A stretch of DNA of 64,000 bases, from NCBI GenBank assembly GCA_945898055.1, contig CAMDGV010000017.1, positions 1 through 64,000 of the forward strand, written 5' to 3'. The stretch comes from Akkermansia muciniphila (GTDB lineage Bacteria; Verrucomicrobiota; Verrucomicrobiia; Limisphaerales; UBA9464). This document shows positions 1,411-61,232 of the stretch, in pieces. The notes below the pieces were generated by a model. It was not told where the DNA came from. It made no database searches and saw only the letters and a program-made list of their open reading frames with translations. The translations under genes were made by a program, and so were the position numbers. How positions within the stretch are numbered: the stretch's first letter is position 1; each line of letters starts with the position of its first letter.

Positions 1411-1673
1411 TGAGGGAGAATTGAATTTTTGGTCTACAAGGGGATCCTACGCGGCTCAAAGATGAAATCTCAATGTGTCGATTGAAGGTTTTTTTCCTGA
1501 TGATTTCAACGACGCCATCTCCGTAGTTGTGGTCAGTTCTGCACCCACTTCGGTCGTACCCCACCTTTGGAACTGAACTTTGCCAACAACATCGGGATGC
1601 AGCGTTTGAAGATTTACACTTATAATTGGCCTTTCCGCAAACCGGTGTAGCAAGTAATTTCTCAAGTTTCCTA

Positions 1674-4544
1674 ATGACTTTGCATCAAATCATCTCTGAA
1701 ATCCAAGGCTCACCGGACCCCCTTTCATTGTGCGAGGTGGCTGATGACGCTTGTTGTCGAGAGCGTCTTGTGGAGTTGCAACAGGCGCAAGACGGCGAGG
1801 TGACTGTCGCTTTGCAGCAGCAGCGACAGGAGTTTGGTCTGCGGTTTCTTTTGGCGGTTGTATATGTGGCACGTCGGCAGGCGAGCGAAGGGCAAATCTG
1901 GCCAGCAGTGCGTGAGGGGATTCAGCTTCCTTCCTCAATCGCTGATCTGATGTTTCTCGAGAGCGATCAGCCGCGCCCTGAATTGAAAGCATTGCTGGAG
2001 AAGTGCTGTCGGCACTATCGCTTGCGGTACATTTTTGAGAATGAGGGGGTGCAGAAATGGATTGGCTCAATCTACCTCCAATTTGGGTTCACCCAACAGG
2101 GATTTTCCAAAATGCTGCCTGAGTGGCTGATGGGCTACAGCCAGCCGAAGACGATTTCTCGGTTGCTGGAAGACCCGCACCTTAAAAGCGAATCGTTCGG
2201 CAAACTTTGGGATGGCCTGCTTTCTTTTCGGCGAGGAAATGTAACGGAGAATCAGGCGCGGAGTGTCATCACAGATAGCCCGTGGATATTGCCGGAATGG
2301 AGCGAAGAGCTATTGCTGGCAGCGAAGAAAAAGCCGCATCTTTCGCCCGCTTCTGGTAGCGGGGGCGTAAGTTGGGAAAACGCCCCGCGCACTTTTTTGT
2401 CCGAGCCTGTTCTGATTGTCGAAAATCATTTGAATGAAGCTTTTTGGCGTTTGAGCCTTGAAGGATTGGATAACTTTAAGCTTACGGGGAAGAGTTATGG
2501 AGTGACGCTCATCTGTGGCGAAATGCCTGCACGCAAGACGGTCTTACGCAAACAGCCGGACGATTCGTTTTCTAACAGCAACGAGTCTTTTGATTTCCCT
2601 CTGTCGCTGGTCAGGCAGGCACAAATCGCAGCGTCTATCACGGATGAGCATGGGCTCGAGATAGCGGCTCAGGATGTCCGTCTGTTTGACCCGGAGGCAA
2701 CCATCATGGCATTTGGTGAAAGAGGTTACCCCGTGGATGACTTTGTGAAGAAAGGACCGAGAGCGAGTTCCCTCTACCATCTACTGATCAGGGATGATTT
2801 GAGCGTCGTCCCTTCCGCCTCTGAGTGGCATACGCACAAAGGGCTTGGCTACACGCTCCTGCGCTTTCGCTTTGAATCGGGGCAAAGTCTGCGTGTGCTT
2901 TTTGAGCATGGTGATGAACTATGGTCGAGTGTAACGTGCGTTCTGAATAATCGAACTTATTTATCCGCAGGCTGTGCCCCAAAATGTGAGATGTCCGCAG
3001 TGGAGAATCCCAGCCTTTACGGTCCAACGGTTAACGAGATTACCTTGAGAGTCACTGGTGTTGAGGGGGCTGAGATCGTTGCCGCGAGATGGCGATCACA
3101 GCGACTCCGTATTGAAGCGCCTGACGAGGCTTTACAGCTTCCGTGGAGGCTTGCTGGCATCTCGAAGATGGATGCGCTTCTTGCTCAACGGGTGGCAATA
3201 CAGGTCACTTTGCGAGTTTCTGGGGCCACGTATAGGACCGTGATCCCGTGGGTTCCAAGTTGCCCCGGCATCCTTGAGCAGCCGCTTGAGCAGTCGCGTG
3301 GTAAGTCCACGTTTGGAGAGAAGTTCAAAACACGAAACTGTGACCAACTCAAACGCGGTCGTTATACGCTCATCCCGAAGTCGCTTTCCGAATGTGAGCG
3401 GCAACGCGACATGAAATGGTGCATTTTTGAAGGGGACCGTTTTGCTTCGCTCCTCCGAGAGGGGGTGGCGCAATCGTTTTCCAATCTCGGAGGTTACGGA
3501 CAAGCACTAACCCTTCGTCTCGGACAGTTTAATTGCGAGAGACAGCCGACCGCAGTGATTGATGAAGTTGTGGATAAAGGGCTGTTTAATATTTACGCCG
3601 TGAATCCCTTCCTCGGGAGGGATTACACATTCGAGACTTGGGCATCGCCTGAACTGGGAGCAGATCACCAGCTTTTCCATGGATTGATGCAGGGGCAAGC
3701 AACGAAAGAGACTGCTGATACGCGCCTGGATTTCAGTGAAGGGCAGGCCATATTTGCGCCGTTCCCGATAGAGGATCCTGACTATCTCGTGCTTGCATAC
3801 GCGGGTATGCGCTTGGCTTCTTGGTGGCGAGTGGCGAATTATCCCAATGTCAATTCGTGGAGCAGCAATCTCGAACAAATCCACGAAGAACCGGATGCCA
3901 GACACGCCGCCTTCACTATCCGCTGGGCGAAACTTCCCATTCTCAGCAGGGATCACTATCGCGGCGTTAAAGTGTTCTTCCGGCGCTTTCCTGATGCGGT
4001 CATGGGGGAGTGGCTTTGCAGTCCCAAAGAACGAACTGACGGACGAAAGATCGTCGGCGAAAATACCGAGGCTTGGCATGACGCGGTGAGGGCCATCATT
4101 CAGGGATACCAGATTGAGCATCCAGAAATCTCAGGTGGAGTGAAACTAAAACTCCTGCATTGCCTTGGCGCAAATGGCACCGGCAACGTTCACGCAAAGG
4201 TATTGGATACTTTTCGGGGAGTTGGGAAATGTGACCCGGTTCTGATGGGGAGGATGATTCAGTTTTGGCTGACCACGAATCCGGATGCGAAGGTAAAAGG
4301 CCAGATGAGCGGGCCTCTACTTAAAGACATTCAGCCAGAGGAACGGTTGATGAAAGACTTGGTTTATTTGACGCAGGGCACCGATGAAGAGTTCCTCAAC
4401 GGCATCGTGAAGATTGGCGTAAAAGCGGTCACTCAGCCGGTTTCGGAAGACCGGGATAAGGTAAACATCAAATCAGCCCTCACGCTTGCTCCGTTTCGCC
4501 AGCTTCTTTATCGGCGAATTGTCACCAAATGGCTTCCAACATAA
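1674..4544 (+). CDS. druH: Druantia type III DruH-like protein
   Basis: ~960-970 aa protein directly upstream of, and overlapping, a DruE-like helicase gene; N-terminal RYIFENEGVQKWIGSIYLQFGFTQQGF...LPEWL region resembles the STY4851/DruH family. ORF opens at 1626; ATG at 1674 is an alternative start. Confidence 0.7.
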   Translation: MTLHQIISEIQGSPDPLSLCEVADDACCRERLVELQQAQDGEVTVALQQQRQEFGLRFLLAVVYVARRQASEGQIWPAVREGIQLPSSIADLMFLESDQPRPELKALLEKCCRHYRLRYIFENEGVQKWIGSIYLQFGFTQQGFSKMLPEWLMGYSQPKTISRLLEDPHLKSESFGKLWDGLLSFRRGNVTENQARSVITDSPWILPEWSEELLLAAKKKPHLSPASGSGGVSWENAPRTFLSEPVLIVENHLNEAFWRLSLEGLDNFKLTGKSYGVTLICGEMPARKTVLRKQPDDSFSNSNESFDFPLSLVRQAQIAASITDEHGLEIAAQDVRLFDPEATIMAFGERGYPVDDFVKKGPRASSLYHLLIRDDLSVVPSASEWHTHKGLGYTLLRFRFESGQSLRVLFEHGDELWSSVTCVLNNRTYLSAGCAPKCEMSAVENPSLYGPTVNEITLRVTGVEGAEIVAARWRSQRLRIEAPDEALQLPWRLAGISKMDALLAQRVAIQVTLRVSGATYRTVIPWVPSCPGILEQPLEQSRGKSTFGEKFKTRNCDQLKRGRYTLIPKSLSECERQRDMKWCIFEGDRFASLLREGVAQSFSNLGGYGQALTLRLGQFNCERQPTAVIDEVVDKGLFNIYAVNPFLGRDYTFETWASPELGADHQLFHGLMQGQATKETADTRLDFSEGQAIFAPFPIEDPDYLVLAYAGMRLASWWRVANYPNVNSWSSNLEQIHEEPDARHAAFTIRWAKLPILSRDHYRGVKVFFRRFPDAVMGEWLCSPKERTDGRKIVGENTEAWHDAVRAIIQGYQIEHPEISGGVKLKLLHCLGANGTGNVHAKVLDTFRGVGKCDPVLMGRMIQFWLTTNPDAKVKGQMSGPLLKDIQPEERLMKDLVYLTQGTDEEFLNGIVKIGVKAVTQPVSEDRDKVNIKSALTLAPFRQLLYRRIVTKWLPT

Positions 4545-7500: not shown

Positions 7501-9898
7501 CTTCACCTTTGACTGGCTGAAGTGTGAAGAGCGGCAAACCAGAGACAAGGCATCAGTGAAAGCGATACGGCTGCATTTCCCCGCCCTCACGCTGCGACGC
7601 CCACCGCAACTGTTTCGCTGCAAAAATACGTCCTCAATTTGGACCCGGCACTTGTGCGGAATCGTCGCAACCAAAGGGAAATTAGATTTGGATCAGATTG
7701 ACCATGCTGCGGCTGACTTGGACTTGAGAGTTGGCAGGCATCGTCGTGGCTACCAGTCCGATTTTTACAACACGGGCCTTTGGGCTGAGGAACACAGCGC
7801 CCAACTCTCGCCGGAAGAGAACCGGAGGCTTCAAAATCTCTTTAAAGCCGGTGCGCGCAACGTGCTGAGTTCGACCACCACAATGGAGCTGGGTATCGAC
7901 ATCGGCGGGCTCAACGCAGTGCTGATGAGCAATGTCCCGCCCGGAAAAGCGAACTACCTCCAGCGTGCAGGCCGTGCTGGGCGACGTGCTGATGGCTCGT
8001 CCATCGTCGTCACCTTTGCCCGCAACACGCCATACGAGCGGGAAGTCATTCAGCGTTTCGGCGACTACCTCGCCAAACCGCTTCGCAATCCAACGGTTTC
8101 GCTGGAGCGCGAACGCATCGTCCGGCGGCACTTTCACGCCTACTTGCTGGGGTTGTTCTTCCGGAGCATTACAGCCGAGGGCGCGAAAGCTGGGGCGATG
8201 GATGTTTATGGAAGGATGGGGGATTTTTGCGGGCTGGCCCGCTCCCAATACTGGAAGCCAACGAACAACCCCCTGCGGCCAGAACCCATCTTGCAAAGTA
8301 GAGGGACAAAGATTATCGCGAATCAATATTTGGAGTTTCTCGAATCACTGGCGGACACGGATGAGTGGCACGTATCAGCAAGAGCACTGATTGCCGATAC
8401 TGCCCTGGCGTCAGGGGACTTGCAGATATTGTTGGCTGACGCGAGCAGCCGCTTCACTGCATTGCGCGACCGATGGAAAAGCTCATATCAGCCCGTTTTG
8501 AAAGCGTGGGAAGCGATCCCAAATGGAGACACTGACCGTGCCGCCTTTGCCAATAGACTTCACTACGAACTCGTCGCAGCCCATCAAATCACCGTCGTCG
8601 CAGCCTTGGCAGAAGAGCAATACCTGCCGCGCTATGGATTTCCGATTGGCACAATGAAGCTCAAAGTAGTCGGCACCGATGAAAGGCACCGCGCAGAGGA
8701 ACAAGAGCAGTATCGGCTGGCACGCGGCGGTATTCAGGCGCTCCGCGAATATGTGCCGGGGTCGGCGTTGCTCGTAGGCGGCAGATTAGTCATTTCGAGA
8801 GGCTTGCTGAAAAACAGCATCGGCATTGGCGATGGCCCCGAGAAGACGCGGAGCTTCGGAGTGAGCGGATGGTTTTCAAAATGCACGAGAGGCCACTTCA
8901 TGCACGGCCCTGGCGGCGGTGCTTCCGCAAAATGCGAGGTCTGCAATGGGGATGCAGTAGGAGCAAAATCCGACTTCCTGATTCCCCAGCATGGCTTTGT
9001 CACTGCGGCGTGGGAGAGCCCACAGCGTCACTTGGGGACGGAGCGTATCGGCTCGGCTGTCGTGCAGGCGATAAACCTTCGAGAAACCGCAGTCAGCGAC
9101 CCAGCTTTCGCGGGGAATCCTGCTTGGGCGGCCTACTACAAAGAGAGCGGCGAGATATTTGTTCACAATCAGGGAGAAAAAGACCTCGGATACGCCATCT
9201 GCATTGCCTGTGGAATGACCGAGAGCGAATGCCGCCCTGTAGCGATTGACAAAGATAAGAGCCTCCCTCGCGAGTTATTGCACCACAGTGGCCTGCACTC
9301 TCCGAAACCAAGACAAGGCTTTCATCGTCCCAAAGCCTGCGATCACCAAAACAGCTTCCTGCGACACCAATCTCTTGCCAGCAAAGTCATAACCGATGTC
9401 CTTCTCCTTGATTTCGGCCCGCAGGCATCCGATCTAGCCGAGACGCTCGCATTAGCCCTAAAGATTGCGGGCGCACGTTTGCTCCAACTTGATAGCCGTG
9501 AACTTGGACACACCGTTGCACCATCTCCAAATGGCGGACACCCCACGGCTGTGGTTTACGACAATGTTCCCGGCGGGGCAGGCCATGTCCTTGAGTTGAT
9601 GAAGGGCAATGCCGATTGGGATAGCGCAGCTTGGGTGAAAATGGCGGCAGAAGTGATGCGCGGAACCGACGCGCACCACGAATCTTGTGAAACCGCGTGC
9701 ATGGATTGCATTCTCAGCGCCGACATTTTTGATGATGCCGACATTAAAAAGCTCCACCGGAAGCGAGCATACGACTGCATTTCACAATCAGAAACTTATC
9801 GCGAAGCACTGGGTAGTTGTGGTGAGAACCACACTGAATCGAGGCCCTCTCGCTCAAACGCAGACCGAAAATCCCGCCTATCCAACTGCGGTTTTTAG
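4529..9898 (+). CDS. druE: Druantia DruE-like DEAD/DEAH helicase with C-terminal DUF1998-type domain
   Basis: Walker A VTAGTGAGKTESFLLPLL; Walker B VVLDEAHLYSG; SATIGDD; STTTMELGIDIGGLNAV; RAGRAGRRADGSS; C-terminal DNVPGGAGHVLEL and CETACMDCILS; 1789 aa; 16-bp overlap with the upstream gene. Confidence 0.8.
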   Translation: MASNINTQTMQSTLNESAQIDAIAMSQQIKERLVDLALSDNFVSDSAVAKALREMWEDTPVNGGLVGDLWVEGVFPSVSSGESLRSLVESGVVAESIMRLLDGNGQLPGDRMLYTHQAESVSHAAGFQGRDEKPAIVVTAGTGAGKTESFLLPLLNLLASNPKREPDQGIQCLILYPMNALVNDQMERIYKWLQGQGANPSISCFHFTSETPESRARKDKRDFRAYDSCRKQTRQEARGWESHDGRKLEGEQRGSVPDIVITNYSMLEYMLCRPQDQCFFGRNLQVVVLDEAHLYSGTLAAEMTLLLRRLYERCGVGSERVLQLATSATIGDDSAGEAGHLEQFASTLFTKPKALVKVIQGQKRDTRLAPLAVAKRVSLEKWLAVLWGDKPTLEYDEFGKAQLAEWTMDEMKRLRESLAVGSDLAIASCRHPSVFLHAALPFDETVCRLSAILYERKHLCMSELAKLLWNRADDAALQATRRILQLAASARQAADEFPLVPHRLHLQARGSSRISVCLNGACGDGYKLPGLGSLNPRGNGVCPSCTHACLSVVRCDNCGTWAVAGMKDADTGRYLPLYRKEDWEKKEVRAYSLSGHGKSSKEEVLNTKTGAPAHGGVSLYFIPDNRCSCCDEKLRAEGRLLGQSADLAISVLTETVLTQLPPLPVKYNQWLPAKGRRLLAFSDSRGAAARLGPKLGFQHEVQLFRAALVQCIGLESPAKAEELEEDIAREQQRLEKDPSNARSKQKLMEYQRDLAALQQGGKVGDWAAKLAQSTIIQQIIDRGEPGCDSDNDPSTRHKTIADDPSKPSGWDHAPQRNWEDNSKGTRKFIEAMLGRELARLSYGGTNLQMAVMVEVNYPGLDGIKAPDALLGTLPTEAMRTQLRSHWATLLALLLDTLRMDGAITLGSEEYDESFPYGSQYIGHWMSLDGIGYKLLRFRGVEGEPGEPDYEEARQRRTRFMERVLLKMGCPQSDVTSLARSVMEAVFQQMTSFTFDWLKCEERQTRDKASVKAIRLHFPALTLRRPPQLFRCKNTSSIWTRHLCGIVATKGKLDLDQIDHAAADLDLRVGRHRRGYQSDFYNTGLWAEEHSAQLSPEENRRLQNLFKAGARNVLSSTTTMELGIDIGGLNAVLMSNVPPGKANYLQRAGRAGRRADGSSIVVTFARNTPYEREVIQRFGDYLAKPLRNPTVSLERERIVRRHFHAYLLGLFFRSITAEGAKAGAMDVYGRMGDFCGLARSQYWKPTNNPLRPEPILQSRGTKIIANQYLEFLESLADTDEWHVSARALIADTALASGDLQILLADASSRFTALRDRWKSSYQPVLKAWEAIPNGDTDRAAFANRLHYELVAAHQITVVAALAEEQYLPRYGFPIGTMKLKVVGTDERHRAEEQEQYRLARGGIQALREYVPGSALLVGGRLVISRGLLKNSIGIGDGPEKTRSFGVSGWFSKCTRGHFMHGPGGGASAKCEVCNGDAVGAKSDFLIPQHGFVTAAWESPQRHLGTERIGSAVVQAINLRETAVSDPAFAGNPAWAAYYKESGEIFVHNQGEKDLGYAICIACGMTESECRPVAIDKDKSLPRELLHHSGLHSPKPRQGFHRPKACDHQNSFLRHQSLASKVITDVLLLDFGPQASDLAETLALALKIAGARLLQLDSRELGHTVAPSPNGGHPTAVVYDNVPGGAGHVLELMKGNADWDSAAWVKMAAEVMRGTDAHHESCETACMDCILSADIFDDADIKKLHRKRAYDCISQSETYREALGSCGENHTESRPSRSNADRKSRLSNCGF

Positions 9899-9915: not shown

Positions 9916-10556
9916 TCAGTTTTTTGGAATCTTGTTCACCGTGTAGTAGGCCTTTTTGTGCAAAAGGCGCTGGCCGTCTGGTGCGGTGATTTTGCCGAGG
10001 TCGAAGTCGTGGATGTGGTCTTCGGTGATTTTGTCGAGATGGACATAGACGGAGAGGCCGTCGGCGGATGGCACGGCCTCAGTGACGCGCGGGGTGGTCT
10101 GGTCCACTTCGGGCTGCCATAGGCGCCGTGGTAGATGTGCGTGTAGGTGGTGATGTTGTAGGTGCCGGAACGCGCGGCGGTTTGTTTGTCCACGGGCTTG
10201 GTGAAGGTGATGAGGAAGCCGTCTTTGCGGATGTTGATTTCTTTCACCTCGAAGGGGACGCCGCCGCTCCAATCAATACGCTGGAGGGCGAAGGGCTCGG
10301 TGCTGCGGACGGGCCACTGGCGGTTGGTGGTGAAACCGCCGGCGACGAACTGGCCTTTCGGCGAAAAATCGACGTTCATGATGCCGGTGGCGAGTCCTTC
10401 GCGGAATGGGTAACACGCACCCTGCCACACGCCGTTCACCTGCTCGGTCGTGGCGCGCAGGATGATGCTCTGAGTGTAGTCGCCGAGGAAAAGCTGGCCG
10501 TCGAATGGGCCGAATTTGCCGCCGGTTTTGTTATTGATCGGAATTTGCTGTTTTGA
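9916..10556 (-). pseudogene. C-terminal fragment of a PVC-type glucose/sorbosone dehydrogenase-like or heme-binding-domain protein, frameshifted
   Basis: KTGGKFGPFDGQLFLGDYTQSIILRATTEQVNGVWQGACYPFREG...YTHIYHGAYGSP then shifts frame to EVDQTTPRVTEAV...LLHKKAYYTVNKIPKN*; 5' end truncated at repeat copy 3. Confidence 0.7.
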
Positions 10557-10568
10557 CGCGGAGGGTAA
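10533..10568 (+). repeat. Dispersed direct repeat, copy 3
   Basis: attgatcggaatttgctgttttgacgcggagggtaa. Confidence 0.8.
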
Positions 10569-10650
10569 ATGACCCCTTACCGAGAATGGTTACATTAAAA
10601 TCAACTGGCCGAGCCTTGATCGACGACGGCCGGCGAGCAAAACCCTCCCG

Positions 10651-12243
10651 TTATTCTGCTGGCCCGCCGCCACCCACGAGCGCATGGATTTCTTCTTCTA
10701 GCTGGAGCGCTTGTGTGCGGAGTTTCGCAATTTCCTTCTCCAGCCGATCAAGGATGTCGCGCGCCACTTCCTCTAGGTAGCCGGGTTGTTTGGTTGCCAA
10801 CACGTGCAGTTCATAGCGCGGGTCTTTCCGCAGTTGGTTGGTGGCCTCTAAGGTCGCCACTATTTCTAGGCGCAAGGTATCGAGCAGCTTGTTGAGGCTC
10901 GAGAGCTCCTCAGCATCTCCAAAATTTAACGCGCCCAACCCGCGTTTTTGTAGGTAGCCGCTGGGATCGTTGGCAATCTCGCGCAACTGATCGAGGTCGC
11001 CACTGTCGCGGGCGCTGTTTATCGCGCTGGTGAGTTGGGTATAGCTTGCGAGTTTCTCGGGGTCGGTAGCAAAGCGGTCTGGGTGGTACAGGCACACCAG
11101 TTTTTTCCATAGGGCTTGAAGCTCCAGCGTTTGCGTTTCACTTAAGTTTTTGCGCCCTGCTGCCTGCGCAGCACCCTCAGCATATTCATTAGCCGCACGC
11201 TGCTTGGCTTCCTTATACTGTTCAACGACGGTTTCGGCCTCCTCTTCACCCACTCGCACCACCACCGCCAGATATTTCTGGCGGTACGTCACGACAAGCT
11301 GTAAGCGGTCGCGCTGCTGGTAATGCGCGTGCAGCAACCCAAACAGCACGGCTTGGGTAACTTCTACCGCGTGCCGTTCGCTGGTGTACTGGGCTTCCAC
11401 CTCGGCCAACTGGGCGCGGGCGGCCGCGATCAAAATTTTGAGCGCGGCGACCGCCGGATCGCTGAAAATCATAACCTCCGTGCCCGGATTGGCCGCGGCG
11501 TGCGCCGGTGCTGCAATCTGCGCCAGATACCAAGCGCCCATCTCAGCGGTCTGCGTATTGGCGCTGCCGGCCAACCAGTTTAGCCAACCCCGCAACGCGG
11601 TATCCCCGCGCGCCTCTTGGAAGAGGCGGCCTTTATATTTGCCGAAGGCAATGCGCGAAGGGAACCACGGCGCCGCCGCATATGCGGTTAACTGAGCCCA
11701 GGTCTTTAAGCCAAGGCGCTCGGCCAGCGGCCGCAGGACCTGCCCTAATAGGTCAACCACCGTGGTTACGTCACCCAGTGCGGTGTGGGCCCCCCGCTCG
11801 GGCAGGCGGTAGAACTGGCGCAGCGTCTGGAGTTTGCAGTTGCCCGCTGGCACTGGATCTAACAGCCGTTGCGCTAGCCGCAACGCGCAAAATCCAGCGC
11901 TACCGATGGGGGCTACGCCTAGCCGGGCCCATTCCGGCCACAGCACTTCGTCCAAGTCGTAGGATAGATTAAACGCCACCAACGGCCGCCCCTGGACGTA
12001 GTCGGCAAATTCACGATAGACCTCTGGGGCTGGGCCCCCGTCGCGATCCAGAATCTCGCGAGTATAGCCGTGGACGCGGGCCGCCTCGGGAGGAATATCA
12101 GCGTTTTGGTTAAGTAGGCGGCGAAACGGCGGCCCGACCGGCTGCCACCCGCGCATGCACTGCGCGGCCAGTTCCACCACATAAATCGGCGCGCTAAGTC
12201 CGGTGGTTTCGGTGTCCAGGAGTATCCATTCGGTGGTGTCCAT
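10651..12243 (-). CDS. DEDDh 3'-5' exonuclease (ExoX-like) with coiled-coil region and C-terminal J-domain
   Basis: Exo motifs DTETTG, SYDLDEV, HTALGDVTTVVDLL; FGKYKGRLFQEA..LRGWLNWLA resembles an ExoX-like C-terminal domain; HPD motif in LWKKLVCLYHPDRFATDPEKLASYTQLTSAINSA. Confidence 0.8.
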   Translation of the reverse strand: MDTTEWILLDTETTGLSAPIYVVELAAQCMRGWQPVGPPFRRLLNQNADIPPEAARVHGYTREILDRDGGPAPEVYREFADYVQGRPLVAFNLSYDLDEVLWPEWARLGVAPIGSAGFCALRLAQRLLDPVPAGNCKLQTLRQFYRLPERGAHTALGDVTTVVDLLGQVLRPLAERLGLKTWAQLTAYAAAPWFPSRIAFGKYKGRLFQEARGDTALRGWLNWLAGSANTQTAEMGAWYLAQIAAPAHAAANPGTEVMIFSDPAVAALKILIAAARAQLAEVEAQYTSERHAVEVTQAVLFGLLHAHYQQRDRLQLVVTYRQKYLAVVVRVGEEEAETVVEQYKEAKQRAANEYAEGAAQAAGRKNLSETQTLELQALWKKLVCLYHPDRFATDPEKLASYTQLTSAINSARDSGDLDQLREIANDPSGYLQKRGLGALNFGDAEELSSLNKLLDTLRLEIVATLEATNQLRKDPRYELHVLATKQPGYLEEVARDILDRLEKEIAKLRTQALQLEEEIHALVGGGGPAE

Positions 12244-12249
12244 GAAGGG

Positions 12250-12969
12250 TTAGTTCTGCTTTAAGCGAGCCTGCCCGCGAACTTTGACCGAGCCGTCGCA
12301 GGAGAAATCGTCCAGCGCTGGAATGCCCGACAGGTCGAGCTCGGTCAGCTGGTTCCACCTGCAGTCGAGCTTAGTCAGCGCCGGAATGCTCGACAGGTCG
12401 AGCTCGGTCAGCTGGTTCTTGCCGCAGGAGAGAAAGGTCAGCGCCGGAATGCTCGACAGGTCGAGCTCGGTCAGCTGGTTGTCGGCGCAGGAGAGCTTGG
12501 TCAGCGCCGGCAGGCTACCGGAGAATATCTTGGCCGACGCTTCGCCGCCATTTTTGACCCCCAACTGCCGAAGCTGCAACCCCGGCACCCACTCGAAGCT
12601 CCGCAGCGGCAATGCCTTGAGGTCTAGCACCGCGGTGCGAATAGTGCCGTCTACAACCTGCAAGCCGAAGTCAGGTTTGTCAGGATTCCAAGGCAACATA
12701 ATAGTGGCGCTCATCAGCCGCTCGAGCACTGTTTCCAACGACAGATTGAGGGCCCGCGCCCACAGGCCAAGTTGTGCGTAATCCGGGCTGCAGAACTCGT
12801 GGTCACCTAAGGTGTGCCGCTGCGCCGGTACAAGGCCTCGAGCAGGCTGCGCGGCCGCGAGCCAAGCCTGCGTCATGCGCGCCATCACGCCCGTTACGTT
12901 GCCGCCGGCGGGGATGAGCGCGCTCGTGGGGCGCACCGTGAGCCCGACGCTTTTATTTTTATCCGCCAT
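12250..12969 (-). CDS. Leucine-rich-repeat protein with uncharacterised N-terminal domain
   Basis: Tandem 21-aa units ALTKLSCADNQLTELDLSSIP; stop lies 4 bp from the exonuclease start on the same strand. Confidence 0.75.
   Translation of the reverse strand: MADKNKSVGLTVRPTSALIPAGGNVTGVMARMTQAWLAAAQPARGLVPAQRHTLGDHEFCSPDYAQLGLWARALNLSLETVLERLMSATIMLPWNPDKPDFGLQVVDGTIRTAVLDLKALPLRSFEWVPGLQLRQLGVKNGGEASAKIFSGSLPALTKLSCADNQLTELDLSSIPALTFLSCGKNQLTELDLSSIPALTKLDCRWNQLTELDLSGIPALDDFSCDGSVKVRGQARLKQN
12308..12496 (-). repeat. 63-bp tandem repeats encoding LRR units (three full units)
   Basis: gacaggtcgagctcggtcagctggtt.. recurs with a 63-bp period. Confidence 0.85.
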
Positions 12970-13235
12970 GGTGCGCGCCCGTTAGGTGAAACATTGTGCA
13001 CTTAAACTAACAGGGGCCACCGCAACAGGCTACTCCTATCGGACGGCGCACCTGGAGGGTCTGCACACTGGGCGCTTCACGGGCTTAAAGCGCTGCTAGC
13101 ATTACGATGACGGGCGTCGCTCCGACTTACGCGCCACTTGGATTAGGCCGCTTGGAGGACCCGAGGAAGGAACTGCAATCCATGCGCCACGTCACCAACG
13201 GCACGCCCGTGGTGCTCTGCAGCTATCCGCCACGT

Positions 13236-13272
13236 CACTGATAGGAAATTGCTTTTTTGACGCGGAGGGTAA
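13236..13272 (+). repeat. Dispersed direct repeat, copy 4
   Basis: cactgataggaaattgcttttttgacgcggagggtaa. Confidence 0.8.
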
Positions 13273-15034: not shown

Positions 15035-15772
15035 CTAAACTCGAACATCGGCTTTCAATCCGCCCTCAAAGCAGGAAGCGAGCAAGCGGAGCAGCGGGTG
15101 TGCAGTCCTAATTTTTTCGAGGTTTAGGCGCACGTAGGCGATGGGGTCTCCCGTTCTCCTGCTTCTGGAAGGGTCTAAGGAGACTTCCTGACGACCGGCG
15201 ATGGTAGCTCGGAGGTGTTCAGGGGTGGCGTATGGGGGTAGAAGTAGCGTCTGCCTACCTAGGTATGAAAAGAGAAGATGAAAGACTGTACAACGACGAT
15301 TATTATTCCCAGGGGGAAGAATAATTGTCGTTGTACAGTAGTTGGCGCTCTGGAGGCCCGCGATGTAGGCGCGAGCATCCTGGGGTTGGAGGGCGGCAAT
15401 GGGCAGCGCAGCCTTCTTGCCGGCCCAAGTGAGAAAGCCATCGATCGACTTTTGGTAGCTCCAGGCTGATCCCTTAGCCAAGGCCGAGAGCTTTGAGGCC
15501 AGCCAGGCTTCCAGGAAGGCTTCGACTGCCTGGCTCTTGATGCTGTGCGACTCGACGTTGGCCCGTTTTAGGATCCCGGCTATGACATCCCGGGTCTGCT
15601 GTTCGATGTGGGTGCCGGCTTCGGCCTGATGGGCGATCTGTTCCCACTCGTCGGCGATGCGACGGGCGACAGCCTTGTCGGTCGACCCTGTGGACCTGAG
15701 CACGAGTTTACCGGCCTGACGGAAGGCTCCGTGCCAGTAGGGCGACCTGGGTCTGCGGTGGATGCTAGCCAT
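15035..15772 (-). pseudogene. Tyrosine recombinase/integrase, N-terminal part, disrupted
   Basis: MASIHRRPRSPYWHGAFRQAGKLVLRSTGSTDKAVARRIADEWEQ...SYQKSIDGFLTWAGKKAALPIAALQPQDARAYIAGLQS then interrupted by a palindrome; no catalytic R-H-R-Y domain follows. The ORF opens at 15841. Confidence 0.7.
15285..15339. repeat. Near-perfect 27-bp inverted repeat (55-bp palindrome)
   Basis: actgtacaacgacgattattattccca g ggggaagaataattgtcgttgtacagt; 24/27 arm positions match. Confidence 0.9.
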
Positions 15773-15776
15773 GCAA

Positions 15777-15799
15777 GTGCTAACGTTAGTGCTAACACT
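15777..15799. promoter_or_regulatory. Possible integrase operator or arm-type binding sites
   Basis: gtgctaacgttagtgctaacact: direct repeat GTGCTAAC x2 with a 12-bp period, including a GCTAACGTTAG(t) partial palindrome, immediately upstream of the likely integrase ATG. Confidence 0.35.
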
Positions 15800-15870
15800 T
15801 TGGGTGTCCAGCGAAGTTTGACTGTGAAAAAAAACCTGCAAAACACATCCGTGAATGTTCTAACCTTAGT

Positions 15871-61197: not shown

Positions 61198-61232
61198 ATT
61201 GGTAGGAAATTGCTTTCTTGAGGTGGAGGGAA
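61194..61232 (+). repeat. Dispersed direct repeat, copy 5
   Basis: ttgattggtaggaaattgctttcttgaggtggagggaaa. Confidence 0.7.

Follow-up and report, generated by a model that had tools for sequence, protein, structure and literature searches.

The nuclease-bearing, NLR-related defence protein bNACHT25 depends on host DnaJ for phage sensing (PMC12169576), and predicted conflict systems include DnaJ and FGS domains (PMC7159879). Phages can themselves carry such functions: the late operon of one phage includes, as a moron, a gene for an anti-phage protein that can protect lysogens (PMC10884400). Here we analyse a two-gene locus in the window, the whole 64,000-nucleotide stretch of contig CAMDGV010000017.1 that was examined, in which an LRR gene precedes exoJ, a gene whose product, by its sequence features, joins a DEDDh exonuclease to a J-domain flanked by coils.

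ExoJ shares with the DnaQ/ExoX-type DEDDh exonucleases (Pol III epsilon, exodeoxyribonuclease X) the RNase_T fold, the five DEDDh residues and the FGKxKG segment, but contains about 300 further residues forming a coil, the J-domain and another coil and, unlike those enzymes, is spread horizontally together with an LRR or FGE-fold partner and occupies no housekeeping locus. The J-domain and C-terminal coil are homologous to those of free-standing coil-J-coil proteins of Gammaproteobacteria (for example P0003, L013 and L050-L056; hhalign E 1.4e-7, HPDR kept), which are mostly about 380 aa long and have a different N-terminal half, with no exonuclease in those examined. The parallel to bNACHT25 would lie in coupling phage sensing to Hsp40/Hsp70 and in having a nuclease as the output (PMC12169576), whereas exoJ lacks a NACHT NTPase, has a built-in J-domain rather than a borrowed DnaJ, and belongs to another nuclease family. 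The late-operon prophage defence morons of the Tab type resemble one of the exoJ loci in being accessory genes in a phage late operon, but Tab is an 83-residue inhibitor of tail assembly, unrelated to exoJ in protein and mechanism (PMC10884400). PADLOC-DB 2.0 contains no specific model for exoJ, only the generic DEDDh and PDC-S48 profiles, and no match to the partner proteins. PDC-S48, a candidate single-gene defence system, matches the exonuclease and ExoX-like part of exoJ (1e-16) over profile positions 1-222 of 411, and the match stops before the coil and J-domain. We rejected PDC-S48 as the family of exoJ because this profile also finds matches in 200 of 210 genomes of Gammaproteobacteria, among them DnaQ epsilon-like and UvrC-type proteins. 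None of the searched libraries describes the exonuclease-J architecture as a unit.

The exoJ gene (10651-12243, minus strand) is intact and encodes 530 aa. Its putative DEDDh 3'-5' exonuclease domain (aa 8-165; 11749-12222, minus strand) is recognised by Pfam RNase_T (2e-11), and a profile of the exoJ family matches the solved structure of DnaQ at 3.5e-10. The DxE, NxxxD and HxxxxD motifs, together with the RNase_T fold, place the domain in the DnaQ/ExoX superfamily, and the catalytic residues D10, E12, D96, H153 and D158 are unchanged in three divergent full-length members. The ExoX-like C-terminal segment (aa 193-245; 11509-11667, minus strand) scores below the Pfam threshold in the window copy (0.069); its FGKxKG/WLxWL core (F200-G205 and W220-L224; FGKYKG in the window copy) is invariant in four members. 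Next comes a helical or coiled linker (aa about 263-362; 11158-11457, minus strand), modelled at low confidence as helices only, and then the predicted J-domain (aa 369-433; 10945-11139, minus strand), comprising helix II, the HPD loop, helix III and a further helix. In the window protein alone, the J-domain is sub-threshold (Pfam DnaJ 0.11); the corresponding values for two distant homologs are 1.3e-4 and 1.2e-3, and the family profile of this region matches solved DnaJ J-domains at 2e-4 as well as genomic J-domain proteins. The arrangement of helix II, HPD and helix III with an invariant HPD is that expected of a J-domain (Hsp40). The HPD motif (H387-P388-D389; 11077-11085, minus strand) is invariant across the family (four members) and nine free-standing coil-J-coil proteins, and HPD, FGKxKG and the five catalytic positions are retained by every exoJ member that covers them. 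The fusion described in the earlier note, an exonuclease with an ExoX-like segment and a J-domain bearing HPD, is thus real. A C-terminal coil (aa 436-523; 10675-10938, minus strand), the part homologous to the coil-J-coil proteins, completes the predicted product. Structure prediction yielded low-confidence models for the two proteins of the module (mean pLDDT 43.6 and 51.8), and for the 350-aa C-terminal half of exoJ the model is likewise of low confidence.

Upstream of exoJ on the same strand, separated from it by 6 bp, lies the LRR gene (12250-12969, minus strand; LRR_4, 1.8e-11), so that the close coupling of the two reading frames claimed earlier is confirmed. The 239-aa product consists of an N-terminal domain (about aa 1-140) and LRRs (aa 154-224), and at the DNA level three 63-nt LRR units (12297-12516, minus strand) are 78-81% identical. 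Scans for promoters and terminators gave no clear excess over shuffled sequences, and an Rfam search returned no match.

The exoJ family sample consists of four known loci: the window and three others. Single-sequence searches recovered only one close relative of exoJ, in a gammaproteobacterial MAG from Lake Baikal (L003, contig SHZJ01000002.1), where the gene is cut by the contig start; it is 89% identical to the window exoJ in protein and 92% in DNA over 1179 bp. A profile of the J-coil region added the IMG/VR contig IMGVR_UViG_3300013004_006699 (L108/L110), and a full-protein exoJ profile added IMGVR_UViG_3300042691_049199 (L111). Two other candidates, L034 and L109 (the second IMG/VR match of the J-coil region search), were discarded as canonical DnaJ or another J-protein. 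In L110, a 549-aa exoJ (51% identical to that of the window) follows a 428-aa LRR protein (37% identical to the window LRR protein) in the same order and on the same strand, with the two genes overlapping by 4 bp. In L111, the gene order is GNAT, a protein of the FGE-sulfatase (formylglycine-generating-enzyme) fold (8.2e-32) and, after a 24-bp gap, a 544-aa exoJ (47% identical to that of the window), with the FGE-fold protein holding the position of the LRR protein; the GNAT and FGE-fold genes occupy 7582-9071 of that contig. The partner thus always lies upstream of exoJ, and both its fold and its size vary among the loci (239, 335 and 428 aa). The N-terminal domains of the window and L110 LRR proteins are related (score 56, against 23.8 +/- 3.9 for shuffles), and the number of LRRs differs widely between the two. 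A possible 'ALIPxGG' N-terminus common to the LRR and FGE partners is borderline (shuffle p 0.009, sixth of 495 ORFs). A search for the LRR N-terminal domain in the class of the Baikal MAG (369 genomes) gave two weak matches, which we judged to be chance because they are located in unrelated genes.

The settings of these relatives are those of phages and mobile elements. The L111 contig encodes, in order, the small and large terminase subunits, an M15 peptidase, portal protein, protease and major capsid protein, then the GNAT-FGE-exoJ genes and a head closure protein; a very strong hairpin is predicted 3' of the capsid gene (-27.5 kcal/mol, z -5.2). Directly before the pair in L110 are a serine recombinase (Resolvase, 4e-38) and a recombinase-associated small ORF, and the contig also carries DUF2924 and an S24-type phage repressor. 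In L003, exoJ is directly followed by the gene for an Sf6-type terminase small subunit, and a tRNA-Arg lies 2.7 kb beyond with its 3' end facing these genes; we infer a prophage inserted at this tRNA. Near the window pair, the only recognised phage gene is a fragment of a tyrosine recombinase (15035-15841). A 55-nt palindrome inside this fragment (15284-15340) has a 96% identical copy within an RHS-like ORF on another contig (L016, 812-862) and is probably a mobile palindromic element able to insert in frame. Given the head operon of L111, the recombinase and repressor of L110, the terminase gene of L003 and the sparse distribution, exoJ and its partner behave as moron or cargo genes, that is, accessory genes in or beside the core genes of phages or mobile elements and absent from most relatives.

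ExoJ is rare within the sampled collections. It was detected in one of 388 genomes from the phylum of the window, namely the window's own, and in one of 369 from the class of the Baikal MAG, namely that MAG; 144 relatives of the MAG yielded no further strong match. The C-terminal half of exoJ has no match in 72,556 plasmids and 50,697 phage records, searches of plasmids, phages and IMG/VR with single proteins found no close homologs, and profiles recovered two IMG/VR contigs. The 92% DNA identity between distant lineages indicates a recent transfer of exoJ. The homology with the Baikal contig stops roughly 20 bp beyond the stop codon of exoJ, about 60 bp inside the left repeat (see below). GC3 of the two module genes is 68 and 79%, compared with 46-62% for most genes of the window (TSP3 and one PQQ gene are exceptions), and resembles that of the Baikal contig (72-77%). 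The dN/dS between the window and Baikal exoJ genes is 0.27 overall and ranges among segments from 0.16 in the C-terminal coil, the most constrained part, to 0.40 in the linker, the least conserved one; the covered part of exoJ, including the J-domain, is therefore under purifying selection. The LRR-exoJ pair is thus a real, rare and mobile two-gene module, intact and under selection, and the identical two-gene operon in the distant L110 shows it to be a conserved unit.

In the window, the module is flanked by two direct 39-nt repeat copies (10530-10568 and 13234-13272, both plus strand), which are 87% identical, as the earlier note had seen. Such close flanking does not mark out the module, because the repeat belongs to a host-wide dispersed family of about 35 nt, TGATAGGAAWTTGCTTTTTTGACGNGGAGGG, non-palindromic, with 68 copies in the genome (0 for the reversed-pattern control), including one at 61200-61230 of the window and 65 at other places in the genome. 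Close pairs of copies are more frequent than expected (16 against 4.7), and 14 of the 16 are direct. We considered integron-like cassette boundaries defining the module and rejected them, as direct pairs enclose ordinary genes in both orientations. A search for the repeat in G388, L110 and L111 gave no match. A PQQ-dehydrogenase-like remnant (9936-10530), frameshifted as judged by eye from its translation, ends at the left copy, and this cut suggests a past rearrangement at the site. The neighbouring Druantia-like locus is genuine (DruE3 profile, 3.6e-197), and no restriction-modification remnants, which had also been reported nearby, were seen among the ORFs scanned. A 972-aa ORF (1626-4544) that overlaps the DruE3-like gene by 16 nt has no match in Pfam, PADLOC, NCBIfam or PHROGs and could be either a diverged DruH or a new partner of Druantia. 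The ORFs listed for L003, L110 and L111 include no DruE-like gene. Co-location with Druantia is seen in the window alone, and the pair is not a conserved part of Druantia loci; it is mostly phage cargo rather than part of a Druantia island. Of the co-location proposed for homologs, the link to LRR genes holds, with the same operon in L110, but that to classical defence islands does not, phage and mobile settings being found instead.

The earlier suggestion of an undescribed defence module therefore remains plausible, as phage or prophage cargo. Temperate phages or related mobile elements would carry a two-gene accessory module, and horizontal transfer would have brought a copy to the window. 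Our preferred reading, to which we assign a probability of about 45%, is that the pair is a module carried by prophages for defence, by superinfection exclusion: the partner would detect infection, and host Hsp70 (DnaK) would switch or position the exonuclease. We infer both the defensive function and the involvement of the chaperone. With this module, the carrying element would shield the lysogen from rival phages. An infection cue would be recognised either by the partner, whose fold is of a repeat or ligand-binding type (LRR or, in one phage, FGE/C-type-lectin-like), or by the two proteins in complex. The J-domain would bring host DnaK to the complex, remodelling it and thereby freeing or positioning the exonuclease; alternatively, the J-domain link may allow a phage-induced change in chaperone load to be sensed. 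The exonuclease would then degrade 3' ends of nucleic acid, either phage replication intermediates or the cell's own. A more specific proposal for such a phage-borne defence module, which we offer as speculative, is that a nuclease with its own Hsp40 domain has host Hsp70 built into activation or sensing and works with an interchangeable sensor, LRR in two loci and FGE/C-type-lectin in one. Against the preferred reading, the known loci number only four and one of them has a non-LRR partner, PADLOC offers no match beyond the generic DEDDh and the non-specific PDC-S48 profiles, the window is the only case in the family in which a known defence gene (DruE) lies nearby, the C-terminal half of exoJ is modelled with low confidence, and a nuclease expressed from a late operon might just as well act in DNA metabolism of the phage itself.

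The last point leads to the main rival, in which exoJ is an enzyme of the phage life cycle, acting in replication, recombination, end processing or nucleotide recycling and recruiting DnaK and DnaJ as in lambda replication, with an auxiliary or unrelated partner. Lambda replication needs DnaJ (PMC12169576), the best PHROG match of exoJ is 'DNA polymerase exonuclease subunit' (2e-27), and one exoJ copy is within a head operon while another adjoins a terminase gene. We nonetheless consider this explanation doubtful: the PHROG match does not extend beyond the exonuclease domain and the ExoX-like segment, exoJ is extremely rare in phages (no C-terminal-half match among the 50,697 records and two IMG/VR contigs), it lies in a moron-like cassette with accessory GNAT and FGE-fold genes, and the window copy has been kept under selection without phage genes. 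Somewhat harder to accept is a cellular maintenance or stress factor for nucleic acids, steered by DnaK to damaged or aggregated complexes and spread horizontally as a fitness gene. The repair roles of DEDDh/ExoX enzymes would fit such a factor, as would the free-standing coil-J-coil relatives in 8 of 274 gammaproteobacterial genomes, at least one of which is beside an ordinary chromosomal gene (bcp-like, L050), but the patchy distribution, the phage and recombinase neighbours and the tightly coupled LRR or FGE-fold partner make it unlikely.

The tight two-gene coupling with the partner always upstream would also suit a toxin-antitoxin-like or abortive-infection pair, in which a toxic nuclease is kept in check by the LRR or FGE protein until DnaK drives the two apart and the cell dies. 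The partner nevertheless varies in fold and size, unlike a dedicated antitoxin, and DEDDh exonucleases are, to our knowledge, seldom toxic alone, so that we regard this possibility as very improbable. Finally, the generic flanking repeat and the gene and integrase remnants around the locus could indicate chance neighbours, transferred debris trapped between host repeats beside Druantia and forming no module; this extremely remote reading is largely refuted by selection (dN/dS 0.27), by the intactness of both ORFs and by the same operon on the unrelated L110 contig.

Chaperones are emerging as components of bacterial antiviral sensing, with the dependence of bNACHT25 on DnaJ as an example. If the prophage-borne defence reading is true, exoJ, with its covalently joined J-domain, and an exchangeable recognition partner would constitute a compact two-gene system moved by phages, whose link to Hsp70 could be severed by a single point mutation in HPD.
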